IMG/VR virus record: IMGVR_UViG_3300025128_000313
Span: 1-24,983 of that record
Length of the DNA stretch: 24,983 nt
Reading direction: 5' to 3' (one strand)
Origin: a virus
Made by a program: the position numbers and the translations under genes. Position 1 is the stretch's first letter. Every line of letters begins with the position of its first letter. This document shows positions 970 to 16,845 of this stretch, one piece after another. The notes beneath the pieces were generated by a model. That model had not been told where the DNA came from. It worked only from the letters and a program-made list of their open reading frames with translations, and did no database searches.

Positions 970-2877
970 CTAGACCTCGACGGCTTCACCCCAACTAGGC
1001 CCAAGATCGATATCGCACTTGTTCGGCACCTGTAACGTGATCGCCGCTTCCATCACCTCTCGGATCTTTTTAGCGTGCTCTAGATCGCGCACACTGCACC
1101 CCAGTTCATCGTGAACCTGCAATAACGGACGCTCGCCGGCTTCATACAGATCGACCATCGCTTGCTTGGTCATGTCAGCCGCAGACGCCTGTATCAGACG
1201 ATTCAGTGCTTTGTACGTGAACGCACGCCGCAGGGGCGTTGTGTCGCCGTACTGGGCGCGTGCTTCTTTCTTCGGCAGTGCTTTCTTCAGTTCGTAGCCT
1301 AGCGGCTCAAACATGTCGAAGCGGCACTTGCGGCCTTTTAAACTTCGGATCGAGCCATCGTCTTTCTGATCCACGGCCCGTGATACGCCATTCATCAACT
1401 CTTTAACGAAAGGCACCCGGTTGTGGTACTGCTTCGTCAGTTCTTTGGCAGTGTCGACATCGACGTCTAGCTGGTCTGCGAGCTTGTTTACACCCATGCC
1501 GTACATCATGCCCAGATTGATCGTTTTGGCCTGCTTACGCGGAATTTGGGCCATCTCAGCGACCATCGTATGGAAGTCCATGCTCGCGTCACTGTTGTAG
1601 CCGTCTACAAACTCTTGAGCGCCGCCCAGCGGCTTGCTCTTCCACTTGCCGAAGATCTGTGCGTAATGCACCAAGATCCGTGGTTCTTGCTGACTGAAGT
1701 CGATTGCAGCCCACTGTTCGTCTTCTTCTGGCAGGAACAGACTGCGAATCATAGGTCCCAGTTCGGGATCACGAGCCGGGATCTGTTGCAGATTGGGGTT
1801 GGACATAGACAGGCGCCCGCTGACGGTGCCCCCATCATCACTGCGCAACTGGTTAATGTGGCCGTGTATTCGGCCCTCTTTTGACACGTAGCGCATAATC
1901 GACGACACAAACGTGCCCTGCACCTTGTTGAGGTTGCGGGCCTCGACGACCATTTTTGCAAACTCGTGTGGGTTGTCACTCAAGAAGGACTTGGTAAACG
2001 AAGGCTGACCGGTCGCAGTGCGGGGGTATTTGATATTCAGTTTGTCGAACGCTTTCGCAAGTGACGATGCGGCCCAGATCTCTACGTCGCCACCGGCCTG
2101 TGCTTCGATCTTCTTGAGCACCGCTTTCTCGCGCTTGATCAGCGCCTGCTTTGTCCGCTCGCACCGATCCATGTCCACCCGGATACCCCGGAAGGTCATG
2201 TCGATCAGGCAGGGCGTGAGCCGCGTTTCGAGATCCCAGACCGTGTTGAGGTCTTGCTTGGCAATCTCTAGCTTAAAAAACTTATACAAATCAAAGGCTA
2301 ACCGGGCGTCCATCTCGGCATAGGGCCCGACGAACTGGCTAGGCAGCTTCCAGAGCTCGGCTTTTGGATCGACACCAAAGTCTACTGCCGCTTGAGTCAA
2401 TAGCTTCTCTGACTTGGCTTCGCCCAGATAGTCGTAAGACAGGGCGTTCAGACTGTAGCTGTAGCGGTTCTCGTCCAGCAGCGCCGCCATGATCATCGTG
2501 TCGATGATCGGGCCATTGACCGGGATGTCCAAAGCTTTGAGCCAGCCTAAGTCGTATGGGGCGTTGTGCATGATCTTCGGACAGTCTGTGGATAACTGCT
2601 TCTTCAGCCAGCGCAGCACGACGTTCTTGTCGAGGTTGCCGCCGCCAAGGTGTGCGATCGGGTAGTAGGCTTCCCAACCGTCTGTCGCGACGGCGATGCC
2701 GACGACGTCACCGTCCTTACGAGGCCAGCCGGGGCCGTACTCTTTGAGGTGTGGATCGCGTGTCTCGAGGTCGATCGCAATCTCTTTTGCGTCGGTTATG
2801 TCTTTCAGTTCAAACGGTGCAGTCCATTCCGCGTTTGGTGTAAACAGCGGAAACTGCAAGCGGGTTTCTTTTTCCAT
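970..2877 (-). CDS. DNA polymerase family A with 3'-5' exonuclease domain
   Basis: This 635-residue enzyme replicates the phage genome. The N-terminal proofreading domain shows Exo I (DLE, residues 36-38), Exo II (HNAPYD, about 104-109) and Exo III (YAEMD, 186-190). The polymerase domain shows motif A (DFSQQEPR from 393), motif B (R447, K451, L455, Y459-G460) and motif C (VHDE, D590). There is no 5'-3' exonuclease domain, as usual for phage enzymes. The residue equivalent to E. coli Phe762 is Leu455. I chose the third in-frame ATG because AAGGAG lies five bases before it and it directly follows the DUF3310 stop; the two earlier ATG codons would overlap that gene. It is the last gene of the leftward replication operon. 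Confidence 0.95.
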   Translation of the reverse strand: MEKETRLQFPLFTPNAEWTAPFELKDITDAKEIAIDLETRDPHLKEYGPGWPRKDGDVVGIAVATDGWEAYYPIAHLGGGNLDKNVVLRWLKKQLSTDCPKIMHNAPYDLGWLKALDIPVNGPIIDTMIMAALLDENRYSYSLNALSYDYLGEAKSEKLLTQAAVDFGVDPKAELWKLPSQFVGPYAEMDARLAFDLYKFFKLEIAKQDLNTVWDLETRLTPCLIDMTFRGIRVDMDRCERTKQALIKREKAVLKKIEAQAGGDVEIWAASSLAKAFDKLNIKYPRTATGQPSFTKSFLSDNPHEFAKMVVEARNLNKVQGTFVSSIMRYVSKEGRIHGHINQLRSDDGGTVSGRLSMSNPNLQQIPARDPELGPMIRSLFLPEEDEQWAAIDFSQQEPRILVHYAQIFGKWKSKPLGGAQEFVDGYNSDASMDFHTMVAEMAQIPRKQAKTINLGMMYGMGVNKLADQLDVDVDTAKELTKQYHNRVPFVKELMNGVSRAVDQKDDGSIRSLKGRKCRFDMFEPLGYELKKALPKKEARAQYGDTTPLRRAFTYKALNRLIQASAADMTKQAMVDLYEAGERPLLQVHDELGCSVRDLEHAKKIREVMEAAITLQVPNKCDIDLGPSWGEAVEV

Positions 2878-2878
2878 G

Positions 2879-3184
2879 TTAGCTCCTTGGGTCATCACCC
2901 TTAGCGAAGCGCAAGTACCAGATAGCTTTGTTCAGATCTTCTTCTGCATCGAACTTCTTGCCTGCACGCCAGTTGTATTTGAACGCAGCGAGGCGGCAAT
3001 AAGTAGCGACGGCATCTTGCCCGAAGGCCGCGACCATCGCGTCTATGCACTCGATCTCGGAATCAGCGTAATGAGGCGGCGAGTTCACCATATCCGGTAA
3101 TATGCCTGCTGACCCGTCTGGAATGTCTTTGTAATAGACCCTTTCCTTCCGGTCGCCAACACTGACCTCAAAGTAATCGCTCAT
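2879..3184 (-). CDS. DUF3310 family protein, 101 aa
   Basis: The C-terminal two thirds match the DUF3310 pattern well: VNSPPHY near residue 33, IECIDAM, the alternating stretch ending FKYNWRAGKK, then EEDLNKAIWYL. This family includes small proteins common in phages and is related to T7 gp1.7, which has been linked to nucleotide metabolism as a nucleotide-kinase-like protein. The reaction of this member is not known; a role in precursor supply would suit its place between a helicase and the DNA polymerase. The start overlaps the helicase stop in ATGA. The N-terminal 30 residues look unrelated to the family core. Confidence 0.85.
   Translation of the reverse strand: MSDYFEVSVGDRKERVYYKDIPDGSAGILPDMVNSPPHYADSEIECIDAMVAAFGQDAVATYCRLAAFKYNWRAGKKFDAEEDLNKAIWYLRFAKGDDPRS
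2883..2888 (-). promoter_or_regulatory. Ribosome binding site deciding the polymerase start
   Basis: On the leftward strand this reads AAGGAG, five bases before the ATG at 2875-2877. It lies within the last codons of the DUF3310 gene and favours the 635-residue form of the polymerase over the longer reading that would begin at 2898. Confidence 0.7.
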
Positions 3185-4704
3185 AACGTGTAGCTCCGAT
3201 AAAAGTTTTCTGGCAAGACAGTGAACAGGTTCTGCTTTGTGCGAGTAACCGCAACGTAGAACACGCGGTGCATGCTGTCTGGATCTGAATCCATAGACCG
3301 CTCTGCAGCGACCGTCAAATCCGTAAACAACACCACGTTGTCTGCTTCACCACCTTTTGCGCCGTGGATTGTTGATAGTTTGATACGGGGAGGCGCTGTG
3401 AGGTCTTCGCCTCGTCGCACCAGTGCGTTAACGTACGCGACGTCAACACCCGGCACTTTATCCAGAGCCTCGTTCCACGACATATCGAGCGTTGCCAACA
3501 AGCCGTTGGTGTCCCGCAACTCTTCGAACGTGAACGTATCGTCTTCTTCCCCAAGAATCTTTTTGTGACCGCGTGCAACACGCACGCCGTTACCTGTCAT
3601 GTAACTGTACAGCACCTTTGCCAGATCGTATGTGATCGGGTTACCGCGCTGCAATGTCCGCCACGCCTCAAGGGCCTCGCGCACTTTTAAACGTAAGCTT
3701 TGTCGCCCCTGTATCTCAAAGAAATAGCCTTGGCTTTTGAGATGATCGCGCACTGGGTTTAAAAAGTACGCCGCCTGCGACAAGAAGAGCCAAGAGCCGT
3801 GATCCATGTCCAGTTCTGCAAAGGTCGAGATGTTTTGTATGCGACCCTCTTCTGTCTTGGGCAGATACGACTTCGGGAACCGGTTACGAATGCGCCGTGA
3901 GATCCGGTCAGCCACCTCATGCACAAGGCGTGGGATGCGAAAGCTTTGCTCGAGCACCTCGCTGCCGCCGGGCAGGTTGATGAAATGCTCCACGTCGGCC
4001 CCAGACCACTTGTAGATCGCTTGGTCGTCGTCGCCTGCACAGTACATTCGCTCAGACTTTGCATCGATCGCGTGGGCAATGTCCCACTGCAGCGGGCTTA
4101 GATCCTGCGCTTCGTCCAACATGGATAGCTTGAATGACGGACACGTCTCATGGGCAGATTGTGCAAAGAGCTCAAGCATGTCTGTGTAGTCGTAGACCCC
4201 AAACTCTTTCTTGTACTGGGCCAAGGCCCGTGCTGCGTAGTCCACTTCAAGCCACGTATATTCTAGGTCGCTTGCGTTGTACTCGGCCTGTAGCTCTGAC
4301 TTCTTGAGCCGGGACAGGGTGATCAACCGTAAGATCGGTGACTCTTTGCGCAGGCTGTTGCTTAGATCCTCTTCGACCTCGTACATGGGGACGTCACCGC
4401 TGACCAGTGCGATCCCAATCTTGCGCTCTACTTCACGGTAGTGCTGGGCGGTCATCAACTGCTCAGACTTCAGTCCGGTCAGATGAAACGCCAGACTGTG
4501 GATGGTTCGAAAGAAAGGCAGGTCAGTCTTTGGATCGAGGTTGAAACGTGCGGCAGCCCGTTCTTTTGCTTCGGTGGCGGCCTTGCGTGTAAACGCGAAG
4601 AACGCGATCTGTGTGGGCGGTACACCGTCAGCCAATGCTTTGTCGACCAGATTGAGCAACGTGGTTGTCTTGCCTGTACCGGGTGGGCCAAAGATGCGCT
4701 GCAT
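3181..4704 (-). CDS. Superfamily 1 UvrD/Rep-like DNA helicase
   Basis: A 507-residue ATP-dependent helicase. Motif I is GPPGTGKTT (residues 6-14), Ia FTRKAATEA (about 38-46), II DEAQD (197-201), III GDDDQAIY (224-231), IV QSFR (253-256), V TIHGAKG (445-451) and VI VAVTR (484-488). These are the motifs of the UvrD/PcrA/Rep group, whose members move 3' to 5' on single-stranded DNA. It is shorter than UvrD (about 720 residues), with a reduced 2B region. It follows the primase with only a 75-aa gene between, and no ring helicase is in the operon, so it may be the replicative helicase; that is inference. The ATG overlaps the preceding TAA (TAATG). Confidence 0.93.
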   Translation of the reverse strand: MQRIFGPPGTGKTTTLLNLVDKALADGVPPTQIAFFAFTRKAATEAKERAAARFNLDPKTDLPFFRTIHSLAFHLTGLKSEQLMTAQHYREVERKIGIALVSGDVPMYEVEEDLSNSLRKESPILRLITLSRLKKSELQAEYNASDLEYTWLEVDYAARALAQYKKEFGVYDYTDMLELFAQSAHETCPSFKLSMLDEAQDLSPLQWDIAHAIDAKSERMYCAGDDDQAIYKWSGADVEHFINLPGGSEVLEQSFRIPRLVHEVADRISRRIRNRFPKSYLPKTEEGRIQNISTFAELDMDHGSWLFLSQAAYFLNPVRDHLKSQGYFFEIQGRQSLRLKVREALEAWRTLQRGNPITYDLAKVLYSYMTGNGVRVARGHKKILGEEDDTFTFEELRDTNGLLATLDMSWNEALDKVPGVDVAYVNALVRRGEDLTAPPRIKLSTIHGAKGGEADNVVLFTDLTVAAERSMDSDPDSMHRVFYVAVTRTKQNLFTVLPENFYRSYTL

Positions 4705-4931
4705 TAGCTAATCCGCCACAGTCGAACGAGGACTTGATCGTCTGTTGAGTCTTTATGGTTCTTGCGTTGTACGACCTTGTAGCCCGCATCGACCATCGCT
4801 TTGCGTAAAGCGTTACGTTCTTTGCCGTCTGGCACTTCAATGCTATCGCCGACTTCCATGTCTCTGACCAGCTTGACCCAGCGTCCCCAGCCCGCTTTGG
4901 ACGGAATATCTAGTCCTTTCTCAATCTTCAA
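4704..4931 (-). CDS. Small unknown protein, 75 aa, TTG start
   Basis: A small basic protein of unknown function between primase and helicase. The centre (MEVGDSIEVPDGKERNALRKA) looks like a strand-turn-helix, followed by a basic segment (GYKVVQRKNHK) and a C-terminal strand VLVRLWRI. I have seen similar short proteins in marine phages, without a function. The start appears to be TTG: it overlaps the primase TGA in a TTGA arrangement, and GAGG (4939-4942 on the other strand) lies seven bases upstream. The next ATG would remove the first 25 residues. It may be a DNA-binding accessory to primase or helicase, but this rests on charge and position only. Confidence 0.7.
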   Translation of the reverse strand: MKIEKGLDIPSKAGWGRWVKLVRDMEVGDSIEVPDGKERNALRKAMVDAGYKVVQRKNHKDSTDDQVLVRLWRIS

Positions 4932-6457
4932 AACGGAACCTCTTCATCTGCCGTGAACCGTGGGTCGCGAATGACCGTCTTTGTAACCTTGTGCGCTGGG
5001 ATCTTCCACAGCCGCACGACCTTGCTTTGAATCCGTAGCTGCGTGGCTTCGCCGTTGATGTCTCGCAGGCGCTGTGCAATCTGATGCGTCTTAAAATGCT
5101 TGAAGTTGGCCTTGAGCAGGTGACCTTCCAGATCTTTGAGCCGGAAGTATGTCTCGTTCTTTTCTTCGTCCGTCCAAGGGCGCTTGAGCAGGATCTGTTC
5201 TTTCTCTTCAGCCGCTTGGTGCCCAGTACAGAACTCTTCCAAGTGCTCGTTGAATATACCGTTGACGCTGACGTCTTCGGACACTTCGATGATAGAACCG
5301 TCTGTCTCTTGCATCTCAGTCAGCAGGGCGTTGATGCGTGTCTCCCACATGTCTTTCTTCATGGTGCGTGGGTAGAAGTTAAGCTGCTCGACGCAGGCTC
5401 GCTGGAACGCCATCTGGTTCAACAGGTCGTCTGTGCCCATCTCCAGTGGCTTGCCCTCTACGTCCAGAAACCAGACCGGGGGTACGGAGTTGTACTTGCG
5501 TAGGTTGGCGATCTGAACGCCTGACACCACTGCCTCGATCCCAAACTTGCGCGTCATGCACAGTTCTTTGTTACAGACCGAGTTGATCGGAGCGTCTTTG
5601 CACTTGTATGCGTAGTCTTTGCGCTGTAGCTGCTTGGCGACCGCGTTGACTTCACCCAGCGGCAGAGGCGGGTGGATGAACTGCATGTTGTGCGTCAGGA
5701 TCTCTGACTCCCACGTATCTGGGAAAGCTTTGCGTAGGTACACGCCGACGTTAAACAGGCCGTTGTTGCGGGCGCCCTCGCCAATCCCGTCTTTGCACAA
5801 TGTCTGCAGGCACGGTGGGCCGTCCTGTATCGGCAGACTACTGTCCTGCTCGACGATCAGGGCCAGCGCCTGTTCGCGTGTCTGGACGTTTTCAGCAACC
5901 AGTTCAAAGAACTCTTCTATGGTTGCAGCACTGCTATCTGGGTTGAACGCGTAGCGCAGGCTGTTCTCATGGTCGAAGTACGGCATGTTCAAAAAGTTGC
6001 CGACGTCGCCTCTATCTAGGTTCAATGCGATCTGTTTTGGGAAGATCTCGCTGCCACCGTACCCCAGACCGACAGAGAGGCGCGTTAAGACCTCTTGCAT
6101 GTCTTTGGCGGGTATGAAGTCGGTTGTAAACAAAAAGACGTGAGCGCCGCCAGATTTGCTTCTACAGACGACTAGGGGCAGCTTTAGATTCTTGAGCTTG
6201 TTGATCAGTGCGGTGTGGTCGAAGTTGTATTCGTCTATGTCGATACAACCCCAGCGGCACATGTTGTCTTCGTTAATCGGGATGATCCCGACAGACTGCG
6301 TTCCATCAAGGTGGGCTTGCCACGTTTCTTCAGTCCGCTCTTCACGGACGATCATCGCTTTACCGGTGGCTTTGCCTTTTGCGTTGCGATCTTCGATCTT
6401 GAACGTGCCGTAGGCCAGCCGCAATCCATCGAATATCGTTGAAAACTTATCTATCAT
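4928..6457 (-). CDS. Archaeo-eukaryotic-type (AEP) DNA primase
   Basis: A 509-residue primase. The AEP catalytic core is visible: metal-binding DxD in CIDIDEY (D73, D75), the SxH motif in SKSGGAHVF (H106), and a candidate third acidic residue at D162 in LNMPYFD. After it comes a helical domain starting near residue 216 (RNNGLFNVGVYLRKAF) and a cysteine set C216, C221, C286, C295, C300 that could bind zinc or an iron-sulphur cluster. The extreme C-terminus is DEEVPF, like the tip of SSB proteins. AEP enzymes make primers and some also polymerise DNA; the lack of another primase makes primer synthesis the likely role here. It is followed by overlapping genes for a 75-aa protein and a helicase. 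A structured 79-base gap precedes it. Confidence 0.85.
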   Translation of the reverse strand: MIDKFSTIFDGLRLAYGTFKIEDRNAKGKATGKAMIVREERTEETWQAHLDGTQSVGIIPINEDNMCRWGCIDIDEYNFDHTALINKLKNLKLPLVVCRSKSGGAHVFLFTTDFIPAKDMQEVLTRLSVGLGYGGSEIFPKQIALNLDRGDVGNFLNMPYFDHENSLRYAFNPDSSAATIEEFFELVAENVQTREQALALIVEQDSSLPIQDGPPCLQTLCKDGIGEGARNNGLFNVGVYLRKAFPDTWESEILTHNMQFIHPPLPLGEVNAVAKQLQRKDYAYKCKDAPINSVCNKELCMTRKFGIEAVVSGVQIANLRKYNSVPPVWFLDVEGKPLEMGTDDLLNQMAFQRACVEQLNFYPRTMKKDMWETRINALLTEMQETDGSIIEVSEDVSVNGIFNEHLEEFCTGHQAAEEKEQILLKRPWTDEEKNETYFRLKDLEGHLLKANFKHFKTHQIAQRLRDINGEATQLRIQSKVVRLWKIPAHKVTKTVIRDPRFTADEEVPF

Positions 6458-6536: not shown

Positions 6537-7313
6537 TTAGAAGGGGAGATCATCCCCTTCTGGTTGTTGAGCGTCAGCGGTGTGCTTGACCGTTACTTCT
6601 CCACCACGAATGGATTCGTAGAACGCTTTTGCACTCCGGTAGACGTTCGCGTCCCCAACCTGACCGTCCAGTTCGATGTTCCACCCATGCCAAGAACCCT
6701 TGGAGTTCTCTTCTTTGATGGTGGACATCTTGTACACATGTGAAAAACGCGGCGGCTGAAACGCTTCACCCTTCGCATTGAGCATGGTGCGTGACGCAAT
6801 CATGCTATTCCACTTGCGACTCTTCTTGAGTTGCGTGGACTTCATCGGGATCAGCGCAGTGCTGAACGTACCGTCGTCTTCTACGACAACAACATAGTGC
6901 TGGTGTGTTTCTTCAAGGTACTCGCCCTCGCCACCAACCACGTAGTCTTTGTTATCGCTCTCGTCACGCTTAGTTTCCGGGCGCTCGTCCTCTATGCCGT
7001 AGTTCTGAAGCGGTGCGCCAGAGCCACTGCCCCGTGGTGCCCACATCAAAAACCGACGCTCATAGTGACACGGAATAACTTTGCAGCCTTCCTTGCTCTT
7101 GTAGATCGCACCCGTGACTGTGTTGTACACGTCACCCGGCTTTGCGTCGATGACCTCTAGGATCTCGTCATTGCCAGACAGAATCTTTAGAAATGGCAAT
7201 GCCAAATCGTCTTGATCCATCTGCATGCCAACACCGGCATCCGCTTCGAACATGGTGGCGTCGACTACTGCGACGTCCTTGTTCTTCTCTTCACTTACTT
7301 CTTTACTAGCCAT
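6537..7313 (-). CDS. Single-stranded DNA-binding-like protein
   Basis: A 258-residue protein that ends in an acidic tail with GDDLPF, the hallmark C-terminal tip by which SSB proteins recruit partners. The body is rich in beta segments and aromatic residues (ALPFLKILSG near residue 40, ERRFLMWAPRG, PPRFSHVYKM, GSWHGWNIEL) as expected of an OB-fold, but I cannot show the fold from sequence alone. Its position just before the primase supports a role in coating single-stranded DNA. The ATG at 7311-7313 is chosen because AGAGG lies six bases upstream; an in-frame TTG two codons earlier lacks suitable spacing. The start lies three bases after the upstream stop. Confidence 0.7.
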   Translation of the reverse strand: MASKEVSEEKNKDVAVVDATMFEADAGVGMQMDQDDLALPFLKILSGNDEILEVIDAKPGDVYNTVTGAIYKSKEGCKVIPCHYERRFLMWAPRGSGSGAPLQNYGIEDERPETKRDESDNKDYVVGGEGEYLEETHQHYVVVVEDDGTFSTALIPMKSTQLKKSRKWNSMIASRTMLNAKGEAFQPPRFSHVYKMSTIKEENSKGSWHGWNIELDGQVGDANVYRSAKAFYESIRGGEVTVKHTADAQQPEGDDLPF

Positions 7314-7315
7314 TA

Positions 7316-7876
7316 TCAACCTCTCTTGATTTCTGCACGTTGGCCTACCCAGACACCAAAAAGCTCCATATCAATCTCTTTGCCTTCTTCAATGCGGCCC
7401 TTAGCCCAACTGCGTAGAGTTGCACTGTGTATTTCCGCCTTGCGTTCGGGATCGAGTTGTTGCTTTTGCAGGTCAGCAAACAGCGCAGACGCTTCATTGT
7501 CCTGTTCTTTGTTGAACCGGCAGGTGATGGTGTTCTTAATAAGATCACCCTCGTTGCGAGCACGTAGCCATTCAAAGGCTTTGTTCTCGTTGTCCTTGCT
7601 GATGCGTGCGCCGTAGGTAGGCTTTATGGTGACTTTGGACCCGTCGTGCAAACTAAACGTAGAAAGGTTGAGTTCCTGCATCGCAGACGGCAGATCTTCA
7701 TCTGTCATCTTCAAAAGCGAGGCTTTCGCACCTTTTAGTTCAAGTTCTAGTTGTTTGACGTGCTTCTCTTGCGCGATAATTTTTTCGGCAAGCTTTGCAA
7801 CTGCGCCAAGACCAGAATCGTTTGGAACTTCAAGTGAGCTATTGCTGTCACCCTCCATCTCGTCAAGTAGACCCAT
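7316..7876 (-). CDS. Conserved-looking early protein, 186 aa, coiled coil
   Basis: First gene of the leftward replication operon; function unknown. After a short acidic, Ser-rich start, residues about 25-60 form a likely coiled coil (KIIAQEKHVKQLELELKGAK), then comes a beta segment (LSTFSLHDGSKVTIKP) and a helical half with charged residues. I recall similar proteins beside phage SSB-like genes in marine phages but know no function; a recombination or replication accessory is possible. The ATG has AGGA with good spacing upstream (GAGGA, seven bases). Its stop lies three bases before the SSB-like ATG. Confidence 0.7.
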   Translation of the reverse strand: MGLLDEMEGDSNSSLEVPNDSGLGAVAKLAEKIIAQEKHVKQLELELKGAKASLLKMTDEDLPSAMQELNLSTFSLHDGSKVTIKPTYGARISKDNENKAFEWLRARNEGDLIKNTITCRFNKEQDNEASALFADLQKQQLDPERKAEIHSATLRSWAKGRIEEGKEIDMELFGVWVGQRAEIKRG

Positions 7877-7978
7877 TTCGTTGTCCTCGGTCGTGTTTAA
7901 TGAATTAAGCGCCTTTCGACACTTCCCAAACGCAGGTTAATCTTATATTGTCCTTTATGTCAACGAAAAAGAAATCAA
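7877..7978. promoter_or_regulatory. Divergent control region between the replication operon and the SNF2 gene
   Basis: This 102-base gap separates two divergent start codons and must hold promoters in both directions unless they are read from afar. On the leftward strand TTGACATAAAG (7953-7963) resembles TTGACATACAG of the RHH promoter, but no good -10 box stands 16-18 bases away. On the rightward strand TATATT at 7944-7949 could be a -10 box, without a good -35. A 12-base palindrome, TTAATGAATTAA at 7897-7908 (two five-base arms around GA), is a possible operator. The SNF2 start has no strong ribosome site. Confidence 0.4.
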
Positions 7979-9424
7979 ATGTACGAATTTAAAACTGAGC
8001 CTTATGAACACCAGAAAATTGCCTTTGACAAATCGTGGGAGCGCAACGCCTACGCCTTATTCATGGAGATGGGCACAGGTAAAACAAAGGTGGCGATCGA
8101 CACTTTAGCGGCGTTGTACGAAGCCGGACAGGTAGAAGCCGCACTGGTCATTGCGCCGAAGGGCGTGTACGCAAACTGGGTAAACAAAGAAATCCCGCAA
8201 CACCTGCCTGACCGCATAGAACGTAAGGTTGTGCTCTGGCAGCCAAACATGACGCAGAAGTTCAAAGCAGAGCTACGAGACGTGGCCGTGCGTAAAGCCT
8301 CGGGCATTCTTAGAATCTTTGTGATGAACACTGAAGCCCTGTCTACAAAAAAAGGCAAAGACGTGGCCAGTAAGTTTTTGGACTACAACCCCGACAGCTT
8401 TGTGGTTGTGGATGAAAGCACGTCCATCAAGAACCGAGCGGCGCAACGCACCAAGAACATCATCGCGTTGGGTAAGAAAGCCAAGTACCGCCGCATTCTC
8501 ACAGGGTCACCTATCACAAAGAATCCTATGGACCTGTTCTCGCAGTGTGGTTTCTTAGGCTCGAAAGCCCTTGGCTTCGACAGCTATTACGCCTTTCAAG
8601 GCCGCTATGCCCAACTGCAGCAACGTAAGTTTGGCGCCCGCAGCTTCCAACAGATCGTAGGGTATCGGAATCTAGAAGAGCTCAACGAGCGGCTCGAACG
8701 TTTCAGCCACCGCGTGCTGAAAGAGGACTGCCTCGATCTGCCAGATAAGATCTACACCCAGCGGTCAGTTGAGCTTACAAAAGAACAAAAGCAAGCGTAC
8801 GAGCAAATGCGTCAATACGCACTGGCGATGCTCGAACAAGGTGAGTTATCCACAACCCAAAGCGTGCTTACACAGATCATGCGTCTGCAAGAGATCTGCT
8901 GTGGCCACCTACGCACTGACGACGGTGAGATACAGGCGCTGCCAAGCAACCGCATGAACGAAATGCTTGAAGTGATCAGTGAGATGATGGGCAAGGTCAT
9001 TATCTGGGCATCTTACGTTTACGACATACAAGCGATAGAGCAAACCCTCAAAGACACTTATGGCCCAAGTTCCGTGGTCACTTTCTACGGTGCCACGCCT
9101 GCTGAAGAACGTGCCGACATCGTGGCGAAGTTTCAAGAGCCGGACAGTGAGGCGCGTTTCTTTGTGGCTAACCCACGCACCGGGGGCTATGGACTGACGC
9201 TAACGGCTGCGACCAACGTGCTGTACTACAACAACTCGTACGACCTTGAGATCCGGCTGCAGTCAGAAGACCGCGCACACCGAATCGGACAGGAACATCA
9301 CGTGCTGTACGTGGATCTGGTCAGCCCGAAGACTGTGGACGAAAAGATTATTCAAGCGTTAAAAGGCAAGATCAATCTTGCTCAACAAGTGCTGGGAGAG
9401 GAAGCGCGTAGTTGGCTTATCTAG
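7979..9424 (+). CDS. SNF2-type superfamily 2 helicase/ATPase
   Basis: A 481-residue ATPase with both RecA-like domains of the SNF2 group. Motif Q-like EPYEHQ (residues 7-12), I MGTGKT (31-36), II DEST (145-148), III LTGSP (174-178), V GGYGLTLTAA and VI QSEDRAHRIGQ are all present in the last third. Such phage enzymes are DNA translocases or remodellers thought to help replication or recombination by moving proteins off DNA; the substrate here is unknown. It is the only rightward gene between 970 and the window end. Its 3' end overlaps the leftward 392-aa gene by eight bases. No extra DNA-recognition domain is fused to it. The ribosome site is weak (AAAGAA only). Confidence 0.92.
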   Translation: MYEFKTEPYEHQKIAFDKSWERNAYALFMEMGTGKTKVAIDTLAALYEAGQVEAALVIAPKGVYANWVNKEIPQHLPDRIERKVVLWQPNMTQKFKAELRDVAVRKASGILRIFVMNTEALSTKKGKDVASKFLDYNPDSFVVVDESTSIKNRAAQRTKNIIALGKKAKYRRILTGSPITKNPMDLFSQCGFLGSKALGFDSYYAFQGRYAQLQQRKFGARSFQQIVGYRNLEELNERLERFSHRVLKEDCLDLPDKIYTQRSVELTKEQKQAYEQMRQYALAMLEQGELSTTQSVLTQIMRLQEICCGHLRTDDGEIQALPSNRMNEMLEVISEMMGKVIIWASYVYDIQAIEQTLKDTYGPSSVVTFYGATPAEERADIVAKFQEPDSEARFFVANPRTGGYGLTLTAATNVLYYNNSYDLEIRLQSEDRAHRIGQEHHVLYVDLVSPKTVDEKIIQALKGKINLAQQVLGEEARSWLI

Positions 9425-13600: not shown

Positions 13601-14374
13601 AAGACGGTTTAAAAACCCTGCTTGATCAGCCAGCGTGGGCTGTGCTGCTTTTACAGCAGCTTTTGCGACTCGACGCCCGACAACAGGCGCAAACAGGCCT
13701 GTCGCGCCTTCGCCTAAAACTTTGTAAGCCTCAATCGTTGCCAAAGCTTCGTCATTGAGGACAGGATCGGTGGGAAACAAAACTTCCTCTACTTCTTGAG
13801 CGCCGACCACCCCGACACCAAGGCCGAATAAACCACTAAAAGCGGCGATGTAAGGATTGCCCGTTTGCATGCCAATAGCTGCGCCAGCCAGCGCGCCTGC
13901 TGTCGCGCCCGTTCCTAAAACTAAACCTCGGCCCGTGCCCTCCAATCGAGCTTCAACCGGTGTGAGCTCCCGGCCTTTAACAAAAGTCGCAAAGAACTCG
14001 TCTTTAGAGATGCCCGCTTTTAATAAGTCATCGTCAAGGTCTAAATACAAGTCGGTAAGAAAGCTATTTACAATGTCGTCTTTTGACAAACCCTCTGCTC
14101 GCAAGCTTTCGATCGGCACGTCTACTTTTGGTAGTTGAACATGTCTTTGTATAATTTCTAGATCGTTCATACCGGCATTGTTACGCAGATCTTCGTACAC
14201 ACCGGGGCCATCCATCACGGACACAATGCCTTCAACCGCTGCAGATAAGCCCTTGCCGCGTCGTAACATAGGCACGAAATGATCACCAAAGGTAAGAACA
14301 GGGCGCGTTGGGATATCTGGCGCGCCGACCGGTGTGACTTCAGCTTGCGTTGGATCTAAGGGGTTTTCAGCCAT
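10601..14374 (-). CDS. Giant probable internal virion/ejection protein, 1257 aa
   Basis: The largest gene of the window. Residues about 149-192 are Gly/Ala-rich and hydrophobic (LVLGTGATAGALAGAAIGM, then AAFSGLFGLGVGVVGA), fit for one or two membrane helices. The long middle is mainly charged helical sequence. Near the end is a Pro/Ala tract (about 1200-1224) and the ending YAALYPNDPISALI (1230-1243), which I recall from other marine phage virion-type proteins. No enzymatic motif is evident. Size, membrane-like segment and place among other large late genes resemble ejection proteins such as T7 gp16 in role, without visible homology. It starts 11 bases after the 819-aa gene, one of the few uncoupled junctions in the operon. 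Confidence 0.75.
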   Translation of the reverse strand: MAENPLDPTQAEVTPVGAPDIPTRPVLTFGDHFVPMLRRGKGLSAAVEGIVSVMDGPGVYEDLRNNAGMNDLEIIQRHVQLPKVDVPIESLRAEGLSKDDIVNSFLTDLYLDLDDDLLKAGISKDEFFATFVKGRELTPVEARLEGTGRGLVLGTGATAGALAGAAIGMQTGNPYIAAFSGLFGLGVGVVGAQEVEEVLFPTDPVLNDEALATIEAYKVLGEGATGLFAPVVGRRVAKAAVKAAQPTLADQAGFLNRLGRAIMTRPYNQKPNPLYGMEGVSDVISSQKFLPVDEPALFKMFQSYNRSPRQTLMQESLGVAGASVGANIAMRGDPNDPYGRVAGEVGGGMLTQYLLGPLRFAPYITAAKETLNQDLMKLAEDTTASGAESRVAFALVQLLEERGEDPQALLEGLRDPSFRNILGEAVDGYAKDATRPLLQAQPGLDAPTSRAITNSATLELLEAKLRQTSRGTAGDNFDVRMQNAFDGQLEAIDNLIVALTVTGKDNPAAVQLAAGLRKEYFEDVVSKRLANALARVDRTVQNINPNSADARVEASKKIDGILQRAFADVRAQENELYKDIPQNIRVGTDNLVAMVDQYKDDLSIEQFEKEFPDLARKVAKRFSRQEDETDELGDALFPTGDVRDTAATVAETADVEEEIITFGEMDRLRRSFLAQARAAASGEAPNPEQARVFGDIAESIRVDMEDLPKLTEFNGADMATDTVLALGKAKAYGKAMRDVFRRAFPNVALRDKRSGEDFVVPELLYKKVIQGGDDETRLRMDQMKDAVTFLATQLTPEAPFDLAQSAIRLNDLSDANEIIMRSLADSKIVKEGRIDAAALDRFVRDNERTLDLLPALKADLSNAATAETLLRRAQDRADTNFFENRFETEEIFDRLTGETPSTAINLALSSPKQATRNILELVDKVRADAARTGRVSVEEVNRQLRDMFFINANAKAGGRTTAIGDSGSAPVERVAPNFGDMRAYFFESTAESPSLMNTLVKADLFTEAEKVRLNKVLKAAEAAQKRLSEGADLVEDLETPGDLLTGLLVKSTGASLGTRAAGLLPGGQSTLIAASGGSRAAQKLMEAIPVTTTNEILEKAIEDPDFLALLLEKGLLVEPKGGFSPKQLAKNLLNVRKINVYLKNALGITGTEMLGAEELTDEERAAMNRFEESPFGTLRPRQLTPPGRPDSRAIMPRRQAAPTPAPAPAPPIAPPAQAALTPPSTDRQRYAALYPNDPISALIDVQGIGALPQAPRV

Positions 14375-14385
14375 GATTGTGATAC

Positions 14386-16845
14386 CTAACGGCCATAAAT
14401 TAGTTTACGCGCATCTTCCGCATCTGAACTTGCACTACCCGGTGCGGGCGTCGTTAAACGAGGCACGCCTTGGTCCTGTGCGCCTTCGACAGTTGCCGAC
14501 AGGCTGTTTATAAGGTTGTCATAACTCTCCAAAAGCACGGGCATGTCGTATTTAAGCAAGTTGCGAGCTTGCTTGATCTCATCGCTAGTGCTATCGCGGG
14601 CGGTGAGCACCCCTTCCAACTCTGCTTTCATGTTTTGCAAACGACCTTGCAATGCACGAGCAGTGCTCAACACCTTGGTGTCTGTCTTAGCAGCACCGGG
14701 CAAAATGCCTTCAACTTCCTTCTGAATTGCGTCAACGATACTTTTAATTCTTGGAGCACTTCCGAAGTCTGCAAAACGTAACTTCAAAGTTTCACCCTGC
14801 AAAGTGGTGAGGTAAGTGTCAGATTTCACAACGTTCGACGGATCGTCGCCACCGTAATCAAAGCCGATAAGACCCTCGGTGAAATCTCTAACTTGGTCAT
14901 TTACAAACCTCAAAGACCTCTTCAGACCACTCATAGCCCCGAAACTTGCTTCCATGTCAGCACCTGCGGGCACGTATGCTCGTATGTTTTGTTGGGTTTG
15001 AGCCCCCTCTGCTTGGATGTCTTTCATCCGTTGCTCTAAAGCTGCACCCGTGTTACCCATCAAGTATTCAGCTTCGTCGATAATTTTTCCGTTAAGGTTC
15101 AGTTCAAAACCGGCTTTTTGTCTGTCGACGATAGCTTTGGCGACAGTTAACGGCATGGGGTTCACGGTGCCTTTTTCCGCTCCGCTCTTTGGAGCGTACA
15201 AGGTGCTAATCGCTGTGAACATGTCTGCTTTGGCTCGTCCACCATCATCCAGACCGTCGAGGGTGCCGTCTGCAAATCCAATTAGATTTCTAGAAATTCC
15301 GGCCCGCATCGATCCATCAGAATCCAAGCTCATCATGTATTGACTAGCCGCCGTCTTGTCGCTGACCAATTTGAAGGTGTTGTCTGCAGGGTTATAAACA
15401 CCAATGGCTTCGGTTCCGTCAGGCCGTTTGATTGTTCTGACTTCAACTTTATTGTTAATTTGAGCCTGCTTAATCATGTCCCCAAGCAAGCCTACGTTTT
15501 TTTCTTGCAAAGCTTGTTGACCTTTCAAAGTTTGCAAATCTAAAGCCGCTTGTGCCGCTGTGGCCGCTTGTTGCTTTTCAATCGCACTTTGTGCCGCCAG
15601 CGTCCGCACAGCACGATCCTGTGTGCGTGCATCGGTACGAAGTTTTGCGACATCTTCAACGTAGTCCTGCCCGACAGTGCCTAGTTGCGACAGCATGGAA
15701 GACCCAGCAATGTTTTTACCAGCCGAGTCCCGACCGGAAGCAAATTGAAATCCTGCTTTAGCCAAAGCTAGTGCGCGATCTTTCTCTCGGTCTTCTTCAT
15801 TTACTTCTGCGATGTTTTGAAAAAAAGGGAGATAGTCAGCATAGGCTGACTCCAAATCTACAGTAGTCCGAGTAGGAGCGGTTGGATTTTCAACATTACC
15901 CAAAGCTGTTTGGAAAAGCTGCATCATCGACGGATCGGTCCCTTGTGACATGTACACAGGCTGCACCGCACCGCCGTTGGCGAATTGCTGTGGCGCAGCT
16001 TCCATAGGAGCACCGGCCATCATTAACTGCCCAACGCCTTGGCCCATGTCCGTGGGCGCTCCACCCTCAGTTGCCATATCGATGTCTGAGGTCATACCCT
16101 GCATCAGGTCGCCTATACCACTGTTCATGGCGCCTTCTTCTGACAGCATGATCGTGGGTTGCACCATCGCAAGAACAGACTCAGGCGTCGCCATAGCGTC
16201 GTCTTGTCCTACAAACTCAGCCAGTTCCGTGCGCCGTGCTTCGATCGGCATGTCATTACCACGTATGGCGTTGATCATGCTTTCAACGTCTTCGGCGTTG
16301 TCTATGCCGCCCAAGGTCTTCGCAACGTAGTCAAGACCGACTTGCTGACCCTCGGCCTCAGATGCCATCTGCACCTGTCCAGCAGCCTCTTGCGGCATGA
16401 TCGGGCCGCCTTCTTGCTTGGCAATCACGCCACGGCCCATCAGAATGTCTTTTTGTGTGATCTTGCCGTCGCCACTTAGATCGGGAAAACCATTTACGGG
16501 GCCGCCCTCCGCGCGGTTGACCCCCTGTGAGTTTATTAAATCTTTTATAAAATTTTGGTCTACGTCGCGTTTATTTATTTTTCTAAGTCGGCCTTTAGCG
16601 CCACCCTTCAAAAAACGACCCAAATCTTCGTTATTCTTTTGTATAGACTCCATTATCGTCAGAGGCGCTTGTTGCAGTTCTCGTACTAGCAACTTCATGT
16701 CGTGATCGGCGCGTGCTTGCGAAATGACTTCGTCTTTTACGAGTTGATCAAGCTCACGTATTTCTGAGCGTATTTCTGCCTCTGAGCGGCCCCCGCTTAC
16801 GGAACCACCGTTCGCACGAAACAAAGGTCTATTCATTACGCTCAT
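14386..16845 (-). CDS. Large virion-type protein with Ca-binding loop, 819 aa
   Basis: An unknown late protein. Residues 122-133 (DLSGDGKITQKD) form a loop of the EF-hand/dockerin type with oxygen ligands at D122, S124, D126 and D133, so it probably binds calcium. The N-terminal 300 residues also hold four short GG motifs (ANGGSV, AEGGPV, QEGGPI, ANGGAV) set in Met- and Gln-rich linker-like sequence. Around 395-475 is a long helical, Ala/Gln-rich stretch that could be a coiled coil, and the C-terminal half is mixed helical. It starts at ATG overlapping the preceding TAA (TAATG). It is probably a structural or ejected protein; exact role unknown. Confidence 0.75.
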   Translation of the reverse strand: MSVMNRPLFRANGGSVSGGRSEAEIRSEIRELDQLVKDEVISQARADHDMKLLVRELQQAPLTIMESIQKNNEDLGRFLKGGAKGRLRKINKRDVDQNFIKDLINSQGVNRAEGGPVNGFPDLSGDGKITQKDILMGRGVIAKQEGGPIMPQEAAGQVQMASEAEGQQVGLDYVAKTLGGIDNAEDVESMINAIRGNDMPIEARRTELAEFVGQDDAMATPESVLAMVQPTIMLSEEGAMNSGIGDLMQGMTSDIDMATEGGAPTDMGQGVGQLMMAGAPMEAAPQQFANGGAVQPVYMSQGTDPSMMQLFQTALGNVENPTAPTRTTVDLESAYADYLPFFQNIAEVNEEDREKDRALALAKAGFQFASGRDSAGKNIAGSSMLSQLGTVGQDYVEDVAKLRTDARTQDRAVRTLAAQSAIEKQQAATAAQAALDLQTLKGQQALQEKNVGLLGDMIKQAQINNKVEVRTIKRPDGTEAIGVYNPADNTFKLVSDKTAASQYMMSLDSDGSMRAGISRNLIGFADGTLDGLDDGGRAKADMFTAISTLYAPKSGAEKGTVNPMPLTVAKAIVDRQKAGFELNLNGKIIDEAEYLMGNTGAALEQRMKDIQAEGAQTQQNIRAYVPAGADMEASFGAMSGLKRSLRFVNDQVRDFTEGLIGFDYGGDDPSNVVKSDTYLTTLQGETLKLRFADFGSAPRIKSIVDAIQKEVEGILPGAAKTDTKVLSTARALQGRLQNMKAELEGVLTARDSTSDEIKQARNLLKYDMPVLLESYDNLINSLSATVEGAQDQGVPRLTTPAPGSASSDAEDARKLIYGR

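Follow-up and report, generated by a model that had tools for sequence, protein, structure and literature searches.

Matching C-terminal tips on an AEP primase and a gp34-like protein suggest a common docking site in mostly marine phages

The window is the whole of the viral record IMGVR_UViG_3300025128_000313, which is 24,983 bases long and possibly a fragment. An AEP-type primase and a gp34-like protein are encoded in the same operon (Table 1). The original prediction that the primase ends in DEEVPF and the SSB-like protein of its operon in GDDLPF was borne out by the ORF translations: the primase, 509 aa in length, terminates in FTADEEVPF and the gp34-like protein, 260 aa in length, in QPEGDDLPF.

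Table 1. Genes and smaller features of the window discussed in the text, with the basis of each assignment.
Feature	Position	Strand	Basis
Family A DNA polymerase (candidate receptor, as in T7)	970..2898	minus	PF00476, E 1.1e-64
UvrD-type SF1 helicase, to which the primase tip may dock	3181..4704	minus	PF00580, E 1.6e-30
Small ORF, possible TTG start overlapping the primase stop	4704..4931	minus	without family match
AEP-type primase CDS	4928..6457	minus	PF22548, phrog_21866, prim-pol fold
Codons of the primase tip DEEVPF	4931..4948	minus	sequence; Pro-Phe kept in near homologues
Codons of primase residues 488-509, the C-terminal tail predicted to be free	4931..4996	minus	model, low confidence
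gp34-like protein CDS, putative ssDNA-binding (OB) type	6537..7319	minus	PF23977, model
Codons of the gp34-like tip GDDLPF	6540..6557	minus	sequence; kept in near-homologue loci
gp33-like protein (DUF7307), always next to gp34 and a candidate partner	7316..7876	minus	PF23984, E 7.2e-26
SNF2-type SF2 helicase, to which the tips may dock	7979..9424	plus	PF00176, E 6.2e-27

Annotation of the primase is based on its similarity to PF22548 (AEP-TOTE; E 3.7e-15, 56.6 bits against a curated cut-off of 27) and to phrog_21866, described as primase (E 1.4e-101), while no helicase family match was obtained for it. Its structural model has the prim-pol fold and aligns with the CRISPR-associated prim-pol 7nqe over 185 residues (Z 20.0, rmsd 2.8), and the sequence matches 7nqf at E 2.1e-14. 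Among 66 sequences D73, D75, K101 and S102 are invariant and H106 is nearly so; the acidic pair D73/D75 (DxD) and the conserved Ser and His are presumably the active-site residues. The AEP domain comprises approximately residues 1-200 and is followed by PriCT-like and other C-terminal parts up to residue 487 and then by the tail, the placement of these domains being uncertain at the pTM of the model (0.56). The last strand stops at residue 487. Everything beyond it, residues 488-509, is modelled without secondary structure and at low confidence (block pLDDT 71 and 57), so the tail is predicted to be free or disordered and not, as would have spoken against a docking role, buried in the primase itself. 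Many primase tails of the window clade also have a P-x-F element (DPRF, TPKF, EPSF or TPEF) upstream of the tip (within 4931-4996 in the window), perhaps a second contact.

The gp34-like protein matches PF23977 (Pam3_Gp34) at E 2.2e-57 with 195.1 bits (curated cut-off 27) and also phrog_2402. Its tip is a close form of the SSB tip D-D-x-[IL]-P-F. Membership of the bacterial SSB family was considered and rejected, the protein belonging to PF23977 and PF00436 giving zero matches across the whole 24,983-base record. The model of the protein (pLDDT 91.0, pTM 0.83) was aligned by VIA-align with a chain of the phiC31 integrase-RDF complex (Z 8.0), with BRCA2 (Z 6.2) and with the RB69 gp32 core (Z 5.6), and, at Z 3-4.5, with numerous chains of SSB and RPA, such Z values being common. 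A viral model named recombination directionality factor also matches it, at E 0.016. Foldseek gave nothing at E < 0.001. With OB-type matches in the one search and none in the other, SSB-like is a fair label for gp34, not a proven one. Judged by chain length, the match in the phiC31 complex is probably the RDF chain, and a common OB-type origin of gp34 and the recombination directionality factors is possible. As in the primase, the tail (residues 241-260) lacks secondary structure in the model (block pLDDT 71 and 55).

The gp34 family is matched by 505 phage records at E up to 1e-3, mostly annotated as hypothetical, and occurs more broadly than the AEP primase. In seven records with no AEP primase seen in the gp34 region read (L387-L393), gp34 ends in EEF, PVF, DEM, EFA or PPF. 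In MW202510 (L568), two minus-strand CDSs are annotated at 13810-14663, where the plus strand encodes a gp34 ending in KDIPFA.

Conservation close to the window was assessed in viral contigs encoding a close primase, 80 in number. Each of these primases terminates in Pro-Phe after a variable linker, and the gp34 ORF, which is present in 62 of these loci, ends in Pro-Phe or Pro-Trp in 60. In the 63 loci counted, the window included, Phe at position -1 and Pro at -2 of the primase are invariant (63/63), with an entropy of 0 bits at both positions and of more than 2 bits at 15 of the 16 positions from -7 to -22. The last residue of gp34 in the same loci is Phe in 44, Trp in 18 and Pro in one. Over its ten C-terminal residues the primase has an average net charge of -0.97, and primase tails are thus only weakly acidic. 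Among the 97 kept primases that end in Pro-Phe, Pro is encoded by CCG (52), CCT (25), CCA (15) or CCC (5) and Phe by TTT (51) or TTC (46), and all three stop codons are used. It is the residues of the tip that are under selection. Overlap with the next gene, the possible TTG start of which lies within TTTTGA, was rejected as the reason for the invariant Phe, since the homologues vary in codons, stops and the bases downstream, and the overlap is not general.

A wider survey comprised 567 loci from scans of viral contigs with other primases, genome contigs and phage records. Of these 466 were kept, the remainder having no gp34 ORF (80), a primase cut by the contig end (12) or no primase ORF (8), or being short (1), and clustering at 80% primase identity gave 104 clusters, each represented by one locus. 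No near relatives of the Kokobel2 primase were found in the viral contigs scanned. Phe, Tyr or Trp is the last residue of 72 of the 104 primases and 87 of the 104 gp34 proteins, compared to 43 of the 807 other genes of at least 100 aa in the same loci; for Pro followed by an aromatic residue the corresponding figures are 38/104, 59/104 and 3/807. The frequency of tips on the primase and gp34 is far above the background. In addition, in three phage genomes with 64, 77 and 50 listed CDSs, none besides gp34 and the primase carries the tip of the lineage. Outside the window clade the tips take the forms EF, NY, NF, NIV, DIL, PI and PFV. What is common to most of them is a terminal large hydrophobic residue, acidic-x-x-Pro-Phe being the form of the window clade. 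The predicted conservation of acidic-x-x-Pro-Phe was thus found for Pro-Phe in the near homologues (80/80) and did not extend to these other lineages.

Across lineages the tips of the two proteins come in pairs, given here as primase/gp34: PF/PF, NIV/DIV, NY/NY, EF/EF, PI/PI and PFV/PFA. In a set of 41 lineages, composed mostly of primases scoring at least 350 with four lower-scoring loci added by hand, the last residue is identical in 28, and none of 20,000 shuffles reached the pairing score, kinship being ignored; at 80% clustering it is identical in 67 of 104. Both proteins have a Pro-aromatic tip in 35 of the 104, an aromatic tip without Pro in 23 and an aliphatic one in 11. The odd tips common to both proteins are the most telling matches. 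NIV/DIV is found in HTVC027P and its kin and ENIV/QDIV in L176-L255, EF/EF in Kokobel2 and Bhz20, and PFV/PFA in L083 and MW202510. DNY/SNY and EAPY/KQPY (that is, NY/NY and PY/PY) occur in L394-L473, a clade near Pelagibacterales contigs, while single loci have TPI/VPI (L504), EVV/EVL (L527) and GEFS/EFAD (L508). In one close clade, the primases of which average 82% identity between the groups, the tips are either DPF/VPF or DIL with DIL or DII, having changed together.

There are also lineages in which the tips do not match. In the HTVC023P clade the primase ends in TGKFRT, whereas gp34 ends in VPF, and in Nanhaivirus the primase has no tip (DGEA or NGQD), whereas gp34 has EIPF or EVPF. Further mismatches are DGII against DDIPF (L543-L547 and L565), DVL against DVPF (L549, L551 and L556) and EAYE against EAPF, the primase being given first. 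These exceptions indicate that the tip is a more general feature of gp34, and that on the primase it can be lost or follow with a delay. In HTVC023P (L094) the genes of the primase and the UvrD helicase overlap by 35 bases (2892-2926), and TGKFRT is nearly invariant in the clade.

In tests that correct for kinship, the last two residues were in favour of the own partner in 15 of 52 disjoint sister pairs and against it in four, many pairs being ties. With other tip lengths the counts for and against were 8 and 2 (one residue), 18 and 9 (three) and 15 and 14 (four). Locus L357 was left out of the repeat of this test and of the tests with 103 lineages, since its gp34 ORF ends early, and the last two residues then gave 14 pairs for and four against (sign p 0.031). 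Control dipeptides at ten positions further in were near even, with a lowest p of 0.16. As 300 repeats of the sister-pair test resulted in identical pairing, they count as one test and not as 300. Independent-pair tests of binary traits gave no value near 0.05 with 103 lineages, on the tree of which the class changes 19 and 18 times, and with 41 lineages five pairs, 4.6 of them in the same direction and none in the opposite one (p 0.06). Tree-corrected support for a joint change of the tips is only suggestive. Taken as a feature of the sequences, the conserved, lineage-matched tip on the primase and gp34 is well supported.

A separate small SSB is encoded in eight of 20 records, and all eight of these proteins end in DDD[IL]PF. 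In the same eight phages the gp34 tips are not Pro-Phe, and neither are the primase tips of the six that have an AEP primase; primase tips of the SEF or AEF type occur in phages of Providencia, Klebsiella, Salmonella and Acinetobacter, which have DDD[IL]PF on an SSB of their own. Six of the eight SSB-bearing phages fall into one primase clade, so that they count as few events. In the six with an AEP primase the host-type SSB end is kept while the ends of the primase and gp34 differ from it, which argues for a phage-encoded dock distinct from the receptors of host SSB; one phage thus has two tip codes, and this speaks against host SSB receptors as the common dock. The phages with the small SSB (L570-L577) comprise six related ones with Providencia, Klebsiella, Salmonella, Pseudomonas and Acinetobacter names, Vibrio QH and Alteromonas ZP6, and the latter two also have adenylosuccinate/diaminopurine synthetase genes.

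Matching tips of a few residues in a large group of mostly marine phages suggest one common socket in the copying machine. A common docking partner was already part of the original prediction, and it is the best reading because the tips of the primase and gp34 match lineage by lineage; the HTVC023P clade and Nanhaivirus, in which the primases have no such tip, do not conform to it. We consider one phage-encoded receptor, docking both tips, to be the best explanation and a fairly probable one. The last few residues of the primase, at the end of a flexible tail, would serve as a short linear motif for docking, and since gp34 of the operon carries the same motif, both could be held by one phage-encoded site of the replisome, either one after the other or simultaneously on separate copies. 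A pocket would take up the hydrophobic side chain at the end, and basic residues would face the acidic ones that precede it. The two tips may compete for the partner or share it. Binding of the tip, the existence of a single, phage-encoded dock and the identity of the protein that has it are all points that we infer. A more specific version, which is plausible though somewhat short of probable, would have the AEP primase and gp34 carrying a lineage-specific C-terminal address (PF, EF, NY, NIV, DIL, PI or PF plus one residue) for one phage-encoded receptor, address and receptor changing together and apart from the host SSB code even in phages with a host-type SSB.

Three other explanations have to be weighed. 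Both proteins could mimic host SSB, copying DDDIPF in order to recruit PriA, RecQ, DnaG or chi. DEEVPF and GDDLPF of the window clade do resemble this tip, which E. coli DnaG and others bind according to PMC5872125, but the tips of other lineages are unlike it in both proteins (NIV, DIL, NY, PI and PFV) and the phages with SEF or AEF tips keep DDD[IL]PF on a separate SSB, and we regard mimicry as improbable. Resemblance through descent or composition alone, that is, through habits of the lineages and without a common binding site, would agree with the weak tree-corrected tests and the many tied sister pairs. However, the match sits at the last two residues while the control dipeptides further in are near even, other genes of the same loci seldom have such ends (43/807), and no other CDS has the tip of its lineage in the three phage genomes, which makes this explanation quite improbable.

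It is also conceivable, if unlikely, that gp34 itself is the receptor. Its own tail would lie in the ssDNA groove or on a neighbouring subunit, and the primase tail would mimic it and dock on gp34-coated DNA. Matching tips would then need no third partner, and the gp34 tips of phages without an AEP primase (L387-L393) would be accounted for; moreover, the acidic tails of T4 gp32 and T7 gp2.5, described in passages of PMC5892887 as regulating DNA binding, are thought to act in this way. Against this stand the gp34 tail, which is unstructured in the model, the weakly acidic character of the primase tails and the lack of a clear excess of fixed differences in gp34 between relatives with PF and IL tips.

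For the preferred reading, a phage-encoded receptor common to both tips, several candidates are encoded in the window. The SNF2 helicase and gp33 are present in every one of 17 complete gp34-bearing phage records (17/17 each), the family A polymerase in 15 and the UvrD helicase in ten, PB1 having a family C polymerase; gene presence across these records does not decide between the candidates. When close relatives with PF tips were compared to those with IL tips for six proteins in the same 4 and 5 loci, 7.8-10.3% of columns showed fixed differences and none of the proteins stood out. PolA and then the SNF2 helicase had seemed to be favoured with unequal sets, an excess that vanished with equal loci. 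Trp at position 20 of the SNF2 helicase, which differs in the PF/IL clade, does not follow the tip class in 251 loci. The SNF2-type helicase or its neighbour gp33 is a reasonable if tentative choice, whereas the family A polymerase, by analogy with T7, may be the receptor with rather less likelihood. It is doubtful that the core of gp34 takes this part, with the primase tail mimicking that of gp34, and equally doubtful that host or other proteins do, and the UvrD-type helicase is a distinctly unlikely receptor.

In the same 17 records the UvrD-type helicase accompanies every AEP primase (10/10) and is found in none of the others (0/7), as if the two were one unit. The SNF2 helicase, gp33 (DUF7307) and gp34 (6537-9424 in the window) always occur as a trio, even in such diverse phages as PB1, Wifcevirus, Yuavirus, Vibrio QH and those of Pelagibacter, and in the two records checked a small phrog_5888 protein belongs with them.

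If a common socket exists, the primase of widespread marine and other phages would be recruited through a tip that is common to a protein of the ssDNA-binding type, independently of T7, and this would point to a role for the mostly hypothetical gp34 proteins of the 505 phage records. Lineages with different tips would be ready natural variants for finding the receptor and for seeing how a docking code changes without the replisome being broken.

Among the known systems, bacterial SSB is similar in that the tips of the window clade are of the same type as DDDIPF and in that gp34 is also predicted to have a free tail after a putative OB-type fold. It differs in that here the tip is also on the primase, non-PF forms are found elsewhere, and gp34 belongs to PF23977 and not to PF00436. 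The closest solved structure to the catalytic domain of the window primase is that of a CRISPR-associated prim-pol (CAPP; 7nqe), and CAPP is not known to have such a tip. Human PrimPol is an AEP primase tied to an ssDNA-binding protein (RPA) by its C-terminal tail; there, however, the tail binds the SSB, whereas in the window one tip is common to the primase and the SSB-like protein. No description of an SSB-type tip on an AEP primase was found in the titles and abstract openings of open-licence papers. The broader claim made at the outset, that no primase is described with such a tip, was wrong in kind given the precedent of T7 gp4 and gp2.5, although the primase family here is unrelated. T7 gp4 combines a TOPRIM primase and a hexameric helicase in one protein, and its tail uses the same site of the polymerase as that of gp2.5. 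According to passages of PMC12230644 and PMC12593628, two positive regions of T7 DNA polymerase are bound by the gp4 tail, which is acidic and the terminal Phe of which is essential, and the C-terminal Phe of gp2.5 is called essential in the title of a reference listed in PMC3997047 and PMC9917605. The resemblance to T7 is that flexible tails, acidic in T7 and ending in Phe, are found both on the protein with the primase and on the SSB of the replisome; the primase and gp34 of the window both end in an aromatic residue on a tail that is predicted to be free. Unlike gp4, the window primase is an AEP without a helicase domain and has Pro before the Phe, and tips of its type vary between lineages in step with gp34. 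A similar arrangement is known so far from phage T7, to the proteins of which those described here are unrelated.
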